DNA of 64,000 bases, from positions 1 through 64,000 of the forward strand of contig JANDLT010000018.1 in NCBI GenBank assembly GCA_024330265.1, given 5' to 3'. This document shows positions 1,918 to 63,531 of this stretch, piece after piece. A program made the position numbers and the translations under genes. The DNA is from Pyrinomonadaceae bacterium MAG19_C2-C3. GTDB taxonomy: Bacteria; Acidobacteriota; Blastocatellia; Pyrinomonadales; Pyrinomonadaceae. A model generated the notes under the pieces. That model made no database searches, had not been told where the DNA came from, and was given only the letters and a program-made list of their open reading frames with translations. Positions within the stretch are counted from its first letter, which is position 1; each line of letters opens with the position of its first letter.

Positions 1918-2796
1918 TCAAGCGAACGGGCAGCCGTGCGCGTCGTGTGTAAAAGGTTGTGAGTTTGAATCAAGGTGCGTGCGGGCTTCCCACATTTCAG
2001 GGAACATCTTTTTCTTGAGCGTTGATTGAAGGTAAGCGACGCCCGCGCTGCCGCCCGTTCCCTGTTTCGTTCCCAACATGCGCTCGACCATTGCGACGTG
2101 ATGCACGCGCCATAAAACTACCTGCTCATCGTGCGCGATAAGCATCTCGGCAAGGTTGAACAACGCCGGATGCTTCTCATATTCGCTTTGCAAACGGACG
2201 TTGGCACGCACGCGCCGCTCATAATTTTCCGGCTTTTGTTCGGTGCTTAGGTTCTCATCCGCCGTTTCAACATCGAAGCCTGCGCGGTGCATCGCGCCAT
2301 AAAACGCATCGCTCAAAGATTCATCGTCGTATCGCTTTTGCAACCGCTCACTCGCAAAAGCATCTTCATTGAAACTCTCAATCGTGCGCGTATCTTTCAT
2401 CCCCGAAGCGAACTCGATTTCACGAAACTGCATTGACTGAAAACCGCTCGCCGGATTGAGCGCGCCACGAAAGCCGAGAAAATCAACGGGCGTCATCGTC
2501 TCTAAAACGTGAATCTGTGCGACAAGGATTTTCTCGATTTCAATCACGCGCATCAACGCCCGCGACGCGGCAATCAACTTGTCCGCGTTGATAAAAACTA
2601 TCGCGGCATCTATCTCATGCAAAATTTGCTTAAACCACAATTCGTAAGTTTGATGAATCGTGATGAACAACAGTTCGTCGTGATGCGCCGGGCTTGATTG
2701 AAGGTCTTGCAACGCAATCAAATCCTGCACGCGCAAATATGAATTATAGGAAAGCCGCGTCTGCTGCCCATACTCTGTTTTTACTTCATCCCTCAT
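1918..2796 (-). CDS. kynA: Tryptophan 2,3-dioxygenase
   Basis: This haem enzyme opens the indole ring of L-tryptophan with O2 to give N-formylkynurenine, the first step of the kynurenine pathway. The 292 residues match the usual bacterial length. The family signatures are intact: HHDELLFITIHQTYELWFKQ near residues 38-57 and WRVHHVAMVERMLG followed by KQGTGGSAG at 229-252. By alignment H233 is the axial haem ligand, and the TGGSAG loop binds the substrate carboxylate and amine. It lies between a kynureninase-like gene upstream and the amine-oxidase-like gene downstream, all on the minus strand. That order supports a tryptophan-degradation operon, although a 175-bp repeat element now separates it from the kynureninase-like gene and may affect read-through. 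Confidence 0.95.
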   Translation of the reverse strand: MRDEVKTEYGQQTRLSYNSYLRVQDLIALQDLQSSPAHHDELLFITIHQTYELWFKQILHEIDAAIVFINADKLIAASRALMRVIEIEKILVAQIHVLETMTPVDFLGFRGALNPASGFQSMQFREIEFASGMKDTRTIESFNEDAFASERLQKRYDDESLSDAFYGAMHRAGFDVETADENLSTEQKPENYERRVRANVRLQSEYEKHPALFNLAEMLIAHDEQVVLWRVHHVAMVERMLGTKQGTGGSAGVAYLQSTLKKKMFPEMWEARTHLDSNSQPFTHDAHGCPFA

Positions 2797-2813
2797 CCTT
2801 CATCCTTTGCTTA

Positions 2814-2988
2814 GCTCGACTTTATCCATTTTTAGGAAGCCGAAACGCCGATGGCATAAGTCTTTTGTTTTCAACGTCAGACTTTTTGAATGTCCACTTT
2901 TTGACTGACATTCAAAAAGTCTGGCGAATAATCGTGACGCTAAGTCTTTTATTTACGTTCCCTGTTTCCAAAATGGATAAAGTCGAGC
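2814..2988 (-). mobile_element. 175-bp MITE-like element, copy 1
   Basis: The element is bounded by perfect terminal inverted repeats starting GCTCGACTTTATCC (2814-2832 and 2970-2988) and has no coding capacity. Inside is a perfect 17-bp hairpin (2878-2894 with 2907-2923). Aligned by eye, its reverse complement matches 63275-63449 with one mismatch and no gap. It is flanked by TTA on both sides (2811-2813 and 2989-2991). Read on the kynU strand, that is TAA on each side, and the near TAA is the kynU stop codon. Short terminal repeats, a 3-bp target duplication and near-identity between copies fit a recently mobile non-autonomous element, possibly moved by an IS5-like transposase with TNA targets (inference). 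Confidence 0.85.
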
Positions 2989-4176
2989 TTAGTACGCCGC
3001 CGCCGCTTCGTGTCCGGCGAAAGCTTTTGTGTCAACGATGCGCTTCATACTTTCGATGATGCGCGTCAATTCTTCATCGCTCGTATAAAAATGCGGCGAG
3101 ATGCGAACGCCCGCGCCGGGACGAAAATCTACCAGTATGTTTTCTTCCGCGAGACTTTTAACGACGTTCGCGGCGTGCGGCGCGTTGACGGTTATCGTGC
3201 CGCCGCGTTGTTTCGCGTCGCGCGGCGATGTGACATCGAAGCCCGCCGCTTCTGCAAGTTCGATTAACTTCGTCGTCTGTCTTTGATTCTTCGCGCGTAT
3301 GTTTTCGATGCCGATTTCATTGATAATTTCATAACCCGAACGCGCCGAGTAAAGCGTCGGAATCGCGGGCGAACCGTGAAGGAAACGCGCGATGCCGGAA
3401 GCATACTTTATCGCTCCCGCTTCAAACGCGAACGGTTGTTCGTGCGCCATCCAACCCGTAACTTTCGGCTCAAGCACATCGTGCCAACGCGGGTGAACAT
3501 ACAAATAACCCGCCCCCGCGCCGCCGCACAACCACTTGACCGAACCGCCCGTCGCAAAGTCAACGTCTAAATCCGTCACCGAAAACGGAACTGTTCCCGC
3601 CGATTGATAAGTATCTAAAACCACAATCGCCCCGACCTCATGCGCGCGTTCTGTTATCGCCCGCGCGTCTTGCAGGAAAGCACTCTTAAACAGAACGTGC
3701 GAGATAGGTACGAGTAAAGTTTCCTCATCAATCGCTTCCAACAAACGCTCATTGGAAACCCGTATGCCGTCATCACTCGGCACGGTCACGATGCGATAAC
3801 TTCCATCCCGCGCGTGCGCTTCATAAACATAAGTTACGCTCGGAAACTCTAAACTTGAATAGACAATCTTGTTGCGTCTCCCTCGCGGCGGAAAGCACGA
3901 CAGGATTAACGATTGACACACCGAAACATTCTGGTGCATCGCCACCGTTCGCGGCGGCGCACCGATAATCGGAGCCAACACATCGCCCACCGACAAAGGC
4001 ATCTCCCACCAACCCTCCGCCCACGCCCGTATCCCGCGCGTCGCCCAAGTTTCGGCATACTCATTCATACGCTCATACACACGTCGCGGCATCGCTCCCA
4101 AAGAATGCGAGATGAGATAAGTCGTATCTCCGAGAATCGGAAACTCATCACGCCATTTAAGAAGTTCGTCAGTCAC
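2989..4176 (-). CDS. PLP-dependent class V aminotransferase fold enzyme, probable kynureninase
   Basis: The 395-residue protein has the fold-type I class V architecture. The N-terminal YLISHSLGAMPRRV (residues 20-33) resembles the kynureninase signature YLxGNSLGxxPR. An Asp (D188 in VVLDTYQSAG) should bind the PLP ring nitrogen, and K214 in GGSVKWLCGG is the expected Schiff-base lysine. Kynureninase cleaves kynurenine to anthranilate and alanine. The assignment rests partly on the neighbouring tryptophan dioxygenase; the central region is also close to generic class V enzymes, so another lyase or desulfurase role is possible. It starts at ATG 4176. The stop codon TAA coincides with the target duplication of the 175-bp element, so the insertion left the reading frame intact. 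Confidence 0.75.
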   Translation of the reverse strand: MTDELLKWRDEFPILGDTTYLISHSLGAMPRRVYERMNEYAETWATRGIRAWAEGWWEMPLSVGDVLAPIIGAPPRTVAMHQNVSVCQSLILSCFPPRGRRNKIVYSSLEFPSVTYVYEAHARDGSYRIVTVPSDDGIRVSNERLLEAIDEETLLVPISHVLFKSAFLQDARAITERAHEVGAIVVLDTYQSAGTVPFSVTDLDVDFATGGSVKWLCGGAGAGYLYVHPRWHDVLEPKVTGWMAHEQPFAFEAGAIKYASGIARFLHGSPAIPTLYSARSGYEIINEIGIENIRAKNQRQTTKLIELAEAAGFDVTSPRDAKQRGGTITVNAPHAANVVKSLAEENILVDFRPGAGVRISPHFYTSDEELTRIIESMKRIVDTKAFAGHEAAAAY

Positions 4177-4232
4177 AATAGTTCATGTTCCTTTGAAATG
4201 ACTTTAGATGTTCCAAAGCAAATTTGAAATTC

Positions 4233-4868
4233 TTAAATCAACTTCCACTCGCGCAACACGCTGACGAGTGTTGGTAAGGGTTCGCGCCACAGCCACTCAA
4301 TCCGCAACCAGAAGCCTGTCAGAACTTCGCTACGAAAGATGCCGTCTTCAATCAAAACAGGTTGATACATTCCTTCCGCGTTCAAGCGGTAAAACTCGGC
4401 TTGCTTGCGCTTTTGGTCAAACATCCAATACTCGCGCACACCGGCTTGCTCGTACTCATAAAACTTGTCGCCCCGGTCGCGCGTTTGACTTTCGGGACTG
4501 ATAACTTCGATGGCGATGTCGGCTGCGCCCAGTAGATGCGACGACTTTAGGCGGTCAAGATTCTCTTTGGCGACAAACAACACATCGGGTTCGCGTCCGC
4601 GCCGTTCGTTGACCTTCATCGCAAACGGCGCGACGAAGACATCTCCGGCATCGTGAGCTTCGGCTAAATGTTGAAGTAAGGCGTACAGAAAACCAACCAG
4701 CTTTTGGTGTTTATTAGTCGGTGGACTCATCAGAACAACCTCTCCGTCAATCCACTCGGCGTGGATGCTTTCATAGAGCGTGAGAAATTCCTCGAATGTG
4801 AGCCGGTGTTTTTGTTGTGAAATTACCGGCGGCGGGGCGATGTTTTCGATTCCTAAATGTTGCGCCAT
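4233..4868 (-). CDS. Uma2 family (DUF820) putative restriction-like endonuclease
   Basis: The 211-residue protein matches the Uma2/DUF820 family, which adopts a PD-(D/E)XK nuclease fold. Visible family features are LTFEEFLTLYE near residue 23, the substrate-side WIDGEVVLMSPP (about 39-50), EPDVLFVAKENL near 95 and the catalytic-type AIEVISPESQTRDRGDK near 118-135. The family expands strongly in cyanobacteria, Acidobacteriota and Planctomycetota, and its cellular function is not established. A second, diverged family member lies at 29952-30581. It is upstream of the kynureninase-like gene on the same strand with a 56-base gap and could be co-transcribed. Confidence 0.85.
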   Translation of the reverse strand: MAQHLGIENIAPPPVISQQKHRLTFEEFLTLYESIHAEWIDGEVVLMSPPTNKHQKLVGFLYALLQHLAEAHDAGDVFVAPFAMKVNERRGREPDVLFVAKENLDRLKSSHLLGAADIAIEVISPESQTRDRGDKFYEYEQAGVREYWMFDQKRKQAEFYRLNAEGMYQPVLIEDGIFRSEVLTGFWLRIEWLWREPLPTLVSVLREWKLI

Positions 4869-61081: not shown

Positions 61082-63274
61082 ATGCAATCAGTGATTTCCC
61101 CCCGATTCGTCGCGTCGCTGGCGATAGTGTTCACGCTTACCGCCGCACCCGTTGTGCGTCCGCGTACCCACTCGTCGCACACCACCACATCATCATCACT
61201 CACAAGCTTGATGTTCGCCGACGTTCGCGGACAACTGATGGGCGTTATTCGTGACGTGAAAACCAATCCGGTAGCAAACATCGAAGTCATGGCTACCAAT
61301 CAGGTGACGGGCGAGAAAACGCGCACCACAACCGACGGGCAAGGTCGTTATACTTTGCGACTCGATCCGGGTGCGTATCGCATCAACGTCGAACTCTTTA
61401 ACGCTTCCAACCCGGAAGCCGAACGCCTTCAAGTTTTTGAGCAAGAACAGGTCATCGTCGGGAAGACCGGCGGCGACATGCCGCTTGACATCACGCTCAG
61501 ACGGCGTGCGCTTCCCGCCAACTCGCCGCTCATAAACAGTGAATTGCCGCGCGGTCAAGGCTTCGAGCCGTTGGGGGCGGCGGGTGATGAATCCGTCGAG
61601 TCGCGCCCGCAAACCGAACCCGACCGCCGCGAAGTCCGCGACCGCTTCCGCATAGGCTTTCCCGAATACGACCGTTACGGCGACCGTGGGCGGCGCGGGC
61701 GCGACATTCCGTTTCGCAAAGGTCGCTTTATTGACCCGTACAATCAGAGCGTCATCAAAGGCGATTTCCCGTTTATCGGCAATAACTACTTTATGATTCT
61801 CGGCGGTTCGTCAGCCGCGACCGTCGAACTGCGCCGCACGCCGACGCCTTCCGGTGCCAGCGCGGATGAACCGGGAAGTGCCGAGTTCTTCGGTCAACCC
61901 GAAGCCCTCGCCGTGATTCATACTGTGCAACTCAACTTCGAGTTTTTCAAAGGCGATACGGTGTTTCGCCCGCGTTCGTTCGCGTTCAAATTCTCACCGA
62001 CGTTCTCTATACCGAACTTCGTCAACGCCCGCGAGCGCGGCGTCCTCAACATTGACCCGCGACGCGGCACGAACCGCACCGATTTACACGCTTCGTTTGA
62101 AGAAGCTTTCGGTGAAGTCAAGTTAATGGATGTCAACGAGAATTATGACTTCGTGTCGGTGCGCGCCGGAATCCAACCGTTCGTTTCCGATTTTCGCGGG
62201 TTTATCTTTTCCGATAATAATCTCGCCGCGCGTCTGTTCGGTGGTTTCGACAACAACCGTTACCAGTTTAACGCCGCCGCCTTCACGATGCTTGAGAAGG
62301 ATACCAACAGCGGATTGAATAGTTTCAAAGGACGCCGCCAGAACGTCTATATCGCCAACCTGTTTCGTCAGGACACGTTCCGCAAAGGCTATGCGATTCA
62401 GGGCAGCCTGCTTTACAACGACGACCGCGGCGGAGTCGAGTTCGATAAGAACGGCTTTCTCGTGCGCCCGAACCCGCTCGGTGATTTCCAGCTTAATCGC
62501 GTTCAAGTCGGCTACGTCGGTTTCAACGGCGACGGTCACTTAGGGATTTTGAATCTCACCAATTCTTACTATTTCGCGTTCGGCAACGAAACGCATAACC
62601 CGATTGCCGGGCGCGGCGTCAAAGTGCGTTCGCATATGGCGGCGGTCGAGGCTTCGATTGACCGCGACTATCTACGCTTTCGCGCGTCGGCGTTCTTTAC
62701 TTCCGGCGACAAAGACCCGACCGATGACCGTGCGACCGGCTTCGACGCGATTTTCGACGACCCGAATTTTATCGGCGGTCAATTCTCATACTGGAATCGC
62801 AACGGCATACGCCTCACGCAAACCGGCGTCGGTTTAGTTCAACCCAACAGCCTGATTCCTTCTTTGCGCTCAAGCAAATCGCAGGGACAGTCGAACGCCG
62901 TCAACCCCGGCATCACGATTCTAAATCTCGGACTCGATGCCGAAATCACACAGAAAATCAAAGCCATCGCCAACGTCAGTTACTTGCGCTTCAATCAAAC
63001 CGAAGCCTTGAAGCTTGTGCTGTTTCAACCGCAGGTTCGCAAAGACATCGGCTTCGATTACTCAATCGGCGTCGCGTATCGCCCGTTTTTGAACAACAAC
63101 GTCACGTTCAATTTCGGTGCGGCGACGCTCACCAACGGGCGCGGTTTGCGCGACATCTTCACCGACCAATCGCGTAACTGCCCGGTTGAAGTCACGGACT
63201 ATTGCGCGCCGCAAGTCATCAACCCGCGCAAGCCGATGTACACCCTTTTCGTCAACACGAGGTTTCTTTTCTAA
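61082..63274 (+). CDS. Outer-membrane-type protein with N-terminal carboxypeptidase-regulatory-like domain
   Basis: The 730-residue protein has a signal peptide (FVASLAIVFTLTAAPVV). A CarboxypepD_reg-like beta domain follows (VRGQLMGVIRDVKTNPVANIEVMATN, then TTDGQGRYTLRLDPGAYRI). A long region rich in alternating aromatic/polar residues and Arg/Asn-rich loops is typical of beta-barrels, ending YTLFVNTRFLF with a terminal Phe. A canonical TonB box or plug is not evident, so it differs from most SusC/TonB receptors. The start ATG 61082 is at the signal peptide; a TTG at 61019 extends the frame. The TAA stop is the target duplication of the 175-bp element. It is divergent from the DUF4331 run. 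Confidence 0.7.
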   Translation: MQSVISPRFVASLAIVFTLTAAPVVRPRTHSSHTTTSSSLTSLMFADVRGQLMGVIRDVKTNPVANIEVMATNQVTGEKTRTTTDGQGRYTLRLDPGAYRINVELFNASNPEAERLQVFEQEQVIVGKTGGDMPLDITLRRRALPANSPLINSELPRGQGFEPLGAAGDESVESRPQTEPDRREVRDRFRIGFPEYDRYGDRGRRGRDIPFRKGRFIDPYNQSVIKGDFPFIGNNYFMILGGSSAATVELRRTPTPSGASADEPGSAEFFGQPEALAVIHTVQLNFEFFKGDTVFRPRSFAFKFSPTFSIPNFVNARERGVLNIDPRRGTNRTDLHASFEEAFGEVKLMDVNENYDFVSVRAGIQPFVSDFRGFIFSDNNLAARLFGGFDNNRYQFNAAAFTMLEKDTNSGLNSFKGRRQNVYIANLFRQDTFRKGYAIQGSLLYNDDRGGVEFDKNGFLVRPNPLGDFQLNRVQVGYVGFNGDGHLGILNLTNSYYFAFGNETHNPIAGRGVKVRSHMAAVEASIDRDYLRFRASAFFTSGDKDPTDDRATGFDAIFDDPNFIGGQFSYWNRNGIRLTQTGVGLVQPNSLIPSLRSSKSQGQSNAVNPGITILNLGLDAEITQKIKAIANVSYLRFNQTEALKLVLFQPQVRKDIGFDYSIGVAYRPFLNNNVTFNFGAATLTNGRGLRDIFTDQSRNCPVEVTDYCAPQVINPRKPMYTLFVNTRFLF

Positions 63275-63449
63275 GCTCGACTTTATCCATTTTGGAAACA
63301 GGGAACGTAAATAAAAGACTTAGCGTCACGATTATTCGCCAGACTTTTTGAATGTCAGTCAAAAAGTGGACATTCAAAAAGTCTGACGTTGAAAACAAAA
63401 GACTTATGCCATCGGTGTTTCGGCTTCCTAAAAATGGATAAAGTCGAGC
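63275..63449 (+). mobile_element. 175-bp MITE-like element, copy 2
   Basis: This is the reverse complement of 2814-2988 with one visible mismatch. Terminal repeats start GCTCGACTTTATCC, and TAA lies on both flanks (63272-63274, the upstream gene's stop codon, and 63450-63452). Relative to the upstream gene the orientation is the same as copy 1 relative to kynU. The rest of 63453-63531 is the leader of the RDD gene with no other feature. Confidence 0.85.
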
Positions 63450-63531
63450 TAAAGACGTTGACGTTCAATTTATCGCCACGCGCGATTTGCTTCGTGACTA
63501 CTTCATCACGGATTCATTACGGGACTTGCAA

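Follow-up and report, generated by a model that had tools for sequence, protein, structure and literature searches.

The window, by which we mean the whole 64,000-nucleotide stretch analysed here, carries two copies of a short non-coding MITE. It is very probable that this MITE is a non-autonomous derivative of an IS701-family insertion sequence (IS), that it is moved in trans with a preference for the tips of IS5-type elements, and that its central dyad is a retained cis site. According to this explanation, an IS701 DDE transposase would act in trans on the MITE through common 18-bp ends and would prefer CTWAG sites with an IS5-type tip (GACTTTTCaaACAtCCT) 16 bp upstream, so that both MITE and IS would come to abut IS5-type boundaries. 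The dyad would serve as a subterminal site. Its likeness to the core of the terminal inverted repeat (TIR) as well as to the target motif makes the transposase its most likely binding partner, and its retention would account for the common centre and almost constant length of elements that have otherwise diverged.

The element, its copies and an empty site

Copy 1 is a 173-bp non-coding element at 2815–2987 (CTCGAC...GTCGAG), bounded by perfect 18-bp TIRs. A preliminary description had given a 175-bp unit with 19-bp termini; the matching ends hold, and the size and TIR length are corrected here, since the 19th terminal base is a G common to the target duplication. The near-identical second copy that it placed 60 kb away was recovered in inverted orientation at 63276–63448, with 1 of 173 positions unlike copy 1. 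The 14-mer GCTCGACTTTATCC, allowing up to two mismatches, occurs four times in the window, all at MITE ends, against 0.46 occurrences expected by chance. The central 17-bp perfect hairpin was found as described (2878–2894 paired with 2907–2923), and the whole element folds 8.5–8.6 standard deviations better than shuffled sequences, as RNA or DNA. Consistent with the reported lack of an ORF, no element-specific reading frame was found in the MITE, the longest frame crossing it being a chance frame of 121 aa. The features are as follows.

2815–2987, plus strand: MITE copy 1, 173 bp
2815–2832, plus strand: left TIR CTCGACTTTATCCATTTT, 18 bp
2970–2987, minus strand: right TIR, perfect inverted copy of the left TIR
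2810–2814, unstranded: left target-site duplication, CTTAG
2988–2992, unstranded: right target-site duplication, CTTAG, holding the TAA stop of the minus-strand gene at 2989–4176
2878–2894, plus strand: left arm of the central dyad CAGACTTTTTGAATGTC, with a TIR-like and target-like core, GACTTTT
2907–2923, minus strand: right arm of the central dyad
2857–2870, plus strand: first copy of a direct repeat, TAAGTCTTTTGTTT, seen in acidobacterial members only
2941–2954, plus strand: second copy of the direct repeat, TAAGTCTTTTATTT
63276–63448, minus strand: MITE copy 2, inverted, one substitution
63271–63275 and 63449–63453: target duplications of copy 2, CTAAG and CTAAA
63340–63356, unstranded: dyad arm of copy 2
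63369–63385, unstranded: dyad arm of copy 2
2989–4176, minus strand: kynureninase-like gene (aminotransferase class V), stop codon within the target duplication
1918–2796, minus strand: tryptophan 2,3-dioxygenase gene, neighbour of copy 1

Copy 1 thus has a kynurenine-pathway gene on either side, the two in the same orientation. The start of the gene for tryptophan 2,3-dioxygenase (TDO) lies some 18 bp downstream of it, and an influence on expression of that gene is possible. A pyrimidine-rich stretch (TCATCCCTCATCCTTCATCC) lies at about 2775–2807 of the window and is 94–97% identical at several sites in the relatives G001, G011 and G025.

The host genome (G000; 4.8 Mb, 144 contigs) holds 12 full MITE copies on 11 contigs at unrelated sites. 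All are exactly 173 bp long; nine are at least 98% identical and three are at 76–77%. Perfect 5-bp target duplications of the CTWAG type flank 9 of the 12. Where the fifth base departs from this pattern, it is itself duplicated (CTTAT/CTTAT, ATAAG/ATAAG, CTTAA/CTTAA), so the duplication length is 5 bp. Across all phyla, the duplication was exact at 40 of 73 sites and carried one mismatch at 18 others (58 of the 73 in total with one mismatch or none). In the relative G010, one CCTAG occupies the place of the MITE in the kynureninase-TDO intergenic region and the alignment with the host runs through it unbroken, which makes this locus an orthologous empty site; the same neighbourhood in G019, G006 and G152 also aligns better without the MITE. 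The element is therefore not confined to two copies at fixed positions, and the recent mobility proposed in the preliminary description is borne out. The CTWAG target often includes the stop codon of the gene next to it (TAA or TAG; 8 of 44 loci), as it does for both window copies, at 2988–2992 and 63271–63275. Insertion therefore regenerates the stop, and the gene stays whole.

A probable IS701-type parent and the spread of the family

The parent transposase, correctly described as absent from the window, was located elsewhere in the genome. On contig C119, one sequence matching the MITE at an end only pointed to an IS of 1453 bp. This IS has MITE-type ends (TIR CTCGACTTTATCCATT) and the duplication CTAAG, and is the sole copy in the host genome. 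Its 450-aa transposase matches the NCBIfam IS701 model NF049999 (E = 2e-105, 353 bits against a cut-off of 170) and Pfam DDE_5 (PF13546, 2.6e-34). By eye, the catalytic pattern reads LDDT, VADS and FVRRWQVE, with Phe in place of the YREK Tyr. When the IS end CTCGACTTTATCC was compared with the IS701 consensus ---YACT-Y--YR, ACT, Y9 and Y12 matched and Y4 and R13 did not. We consider this IS the likely parent of the MITE on the basis of its sequence, and we infer with high confidence that an IS701 transposase mobilises the MITE in trans through the ends they have in common. A transposase homologue (E < 1e-60) was detected in 11 of 30 MITE-bearing genomes versus none of 20 MITE-free cyanobacterial genomes, in a survey where one MITE-bearing genome was counted under two handles and the 20 controls were unmatched for genome size. 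The majority of MITE-bearing genomes thus have no intact transposase at this cut-off, perhaps owing to draft assembly or loss.

Elements with the same TIR were found in Pyrinomonadaceae and other Acidobacteriota, in Cyanobacteriota, in Burkholderiales and in Verrucomicrobiota. The genomes surveyed were drafts and MAGs, with the phylum assigned for loci carrying record titles, and over this sample it is one recognisable MITE family across at least four bacterial phyla. A sequence-only model detected the family in 43 cyanobacterial genomes out of 390, and multiple copies per genome were common. Element length is mostly 171–176 bp, and burkholderial and verrucomicrobial members range from 155 to 175 bp. 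A viral or plasmid origin was considered and rejected: the MITE had no exact match in viral contigs, only three weak partial matches to cyanobacterial plasmids were obtained, and the two examined bracket MITEs. No annotated or published MITE of the same type was found in a literature search of incomplete coverage, with subscription journals and ISfinder outside its scope.

Target choice at IS5-type tips

We examined both flanks of 73 distinct insertion sites from all phyla (146 flanks). In 25 of the 146 flanks, representing 24 sites, the motif ACTTTT (at most one mismatch) began exactly 16 bp ahead of the duplicated pentamer; every other offset had 0 to 4 such flanks. The full target motif of Acidobacteria is (G/A)ACTTTTCARACAYSCT-CTWAG, and that of Cyanobacteria is ACTTTTCAAACATCCT-CTWAG. 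Several insertions in the host genome adjoin a second repeat with ends GAGCGTGTCTGAAAAGTC and its own 3-bp TNA duplication, and the intact partner ends of such abutted TIR elements were found at L006, L008, L011 and L012. Among cyanobacterial loci with long flanks, an inverted partner end lies near four of seven tip motifs (L134, L135, L144 and L148). In every case with a partner end, the ACTTTT motif proved to be the tip of a terminal-repeat element of IS5-like type.

The autonomous elements behave alike. Acidobacterial parent-type ISs sit at the same tips as the MITEs, and parent-type ISs in Roseomonas and Rhizobium (plasmids) adjoin annotated IS5-family elements, both IS5 ends being located in three cases. 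The two transposases of these abutted elements that were tested are IS5 (NF033580, E = 1.5e-60 and 4e-82). The short TIR elements targeted in the host genome have IS5-like tips and 3-bp TNA duplications; no transposase with their ends was found among the loci examined. This second repeat family (G000:C101:9548-9790, C73:24060-24300, C3:73481-73709, C57:4701-4883 and C77:42619-42801; L034–L053) comes in forms of about 177 bp and of 221–237 bp, the longer being packed with nested palindromes such as CCCAGCGATTCATCGCTGGG.

The association could also arise if the element were an ordinary MITE without special target choice and the tip motif merely reflected the CTWAG that IS5-type insertions create, by setting a TWA duplication beside a terminal C or G. 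IS5-type tips do generate CTWAG in this way (TWA beside GAG.../...CTC), and about 60–67% of insertions lack the tip motif. Against this, 6 of 13 insertions in the host genome lie at tip-motif sites, of which there are 38 matches genome-wide, compared with roughly 2,700–4,600 CTWAG sites (extrapolated); binomial arithmetic puts the probability of such a result by chance at about 1e-8 or less. The motif also keeps strictly to offset 16 and is seen again in different phyla. We therefore regard ordinary, unselective insertion as unlikely and favour a preference for IS5-type tips.

The central dyad and relation to known systems

The dyad consists of GACTTTTT..ATGTC and its inverse. In most members its midpoint is no more than about one base away from that of the element, with most arms lying 20–22 bp to either side of the exact element centre, and the dyad is retained in the exact centre of elements whose own arms have diverged. 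Of 70 elements, 46 have their best internal match to the TIR core GACTTTATCCAT within the dyad. The central motif was also considered as a separate repeat and rejected, its exact form in the host genome being confined to MITEs.

When twelve IS 3' ends were aligned, the segment 66–111 bp from the end, within the transposase gene, read GACTTTTTC..ACATC...AAAGT. A profile of these ends matched the MITE centres at more than 6 bits in 26 instances among 73 elements, compared with one among 730 shuffled elements, and the spacing from dyad to end is equal in IS and MITE; the window's own MITE type matched weakly, at 3.8 bits. At the level of sequence comparison, these data showed that the MITE centre derives from the IS 3' end, from a 45-bp segment inside the transposase gene. 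The cyanobacterial element L157 (G437:C54:3725-3933; 209 bp) scores 97 bits against the IS profile and reads plainly as an IS with its middle deleted, an internal-deletion intermediate. L157 and L188 (G174:C7) are longer elements that resemble recent internal-deletion derivatives of the IS, and would stand between IS and MITE. In the cyanobacterial ISs L206 and L209, an internal site lies about 110 bp from the 3' end; in L206 it is CTCGACTTTTTCCATTC, almost a full left TIR within the transposase gene, and, in principle, pairing of such a site with the right TIR could move a mini-element some 115 bp long.

The dyad might instead be a leftover from the end of the transposase gene, passively carried along, with MITEs arising repeatedly from local ISs at similar break points. 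L157 exemplifies such fresh formation, and the homologous IS segment is coding and conserved (F-x-[TMI]-S ... KVP, by eye), so dyad conservation could in part be protein constraint inherited by the MITE. However, outside the dyad the arms no longer bear a recognisable likeness to the IS, whereas the dyad persists, still exactly centred, and element length is maintained; the inverse arm has only a weak AAAGT match in the IS. GACTTTT is kept across ISs despite a difference in frame (CGA CTT TTT versus CGG ACT TTT, by eye), which hints at a constraint at the DNA level. On balance, a passive origin is a secondary possibility, to be taken seriously but doubtful, and retention of a cis site is the reading we prefer.

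Selection of the hairpin as RNA, in a structured RNA gene or regulatory element spreading as a repeat, would fit the strong single-copy fold (z of -8.5). The dyad pairs in 72.7% of cells versus 33–52% when slid, with 18 both-side changes versus 9.6 in shuffles, but this moderate conservation of pairing is equally compatible with a DNA dyad and with a hairpin. RNAalifold recovered TIR pairing only, the dyad is broken in several members (e.g., L011 and L080), no Rfam family reached its gathering score, and the target duplications, the empty site and insertion beside other elements indicate DNA transposition. An RNA role is thus very improbable, and where the preliminary description offered mobility or structural selection as alternatives, the former stood and RNA-structure selection is weakly supported at best. 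Tethering of the MITE to IS5 ends through a host factor, or the IS5 transposase, bound at the dyad is also unlikely. The dyad arm does resemble IS5-type tips in its GACTTTT core, and MITE interiors score 10.96 of 16 against the cyanobacterial tip (shuffles, 9.56); the acidobacterial tip gives no excess (9.5 versus 9.33), however, and autonomous ISs without the symmetric MITE-type dyad insert at the same tips.

Returning to the retained cis site, the dyad may be a transposase-binding site, with the same domain reading dyad and target; that one protein surface recognises all three of TIR, dyad and IS5 tip is speculative. A single DNA-recognition module of this IS701 subgroup might read variants of one word in all three, which would make the IS and its MITEs dedicated hitch-hikers on IS5 boundaries and the MITE centre a conserved cis-acting mimic of self and target across phyla; we regard this broad form as possible but doubtful.

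These results assign a concrete transposase to what was an orphan repeat, and describe a MITE family common to several phyla with a conserved interior. They provide a testable case of an insertion sequence parasitising the borders of another insertion-sequence family, for which IS5-tip targeting makes the insertion site predictable and places it mostly between genes, and suggest that a single recognition sequence may serve a transposase's ends, internal site and target.

The C119 IS resembles the IS701 family in its DDE transposase of about 450 aa (NF049999, PF13546), in its 1453-bp length, inside the range of 1400–1550 bp (PMC2266710), in its short target duplication, and in the YREK Tyr, which is usually absent in the family and is Phe here. 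The published end consensus fits its ends in part only. The IS and the MITEs duplicate 5 bp; the IS701 duplication is given as 4 bp for almost all members (PMC2266710) and as 4 or 5 bp (cited in PMC8024623). No description of IS5-tip targeting by this family was found in the literature. Like MITEs in general, the element is short, non-coding and multicopy, with the TIRs of a resident IS, target-site duplications and empty sites; it differs in its spread over at least four phyla, its conserved central dyad and its nearly constant length. Insertion beside terminal repeats already in the genome is known for IS30 and IS911 (PMC9333248). IS30, however, targets its own ends via IR-IR junctions, whereas the ends targeted here belong to the IS5-type family and a 5-bp duplication is made. 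REP-targeting insertion sequences (PMC1525189) have a similarly high selectivity for a repeated extragenic target, but the target of the MITE is the tip of a TIR element rather than REP palindromes.
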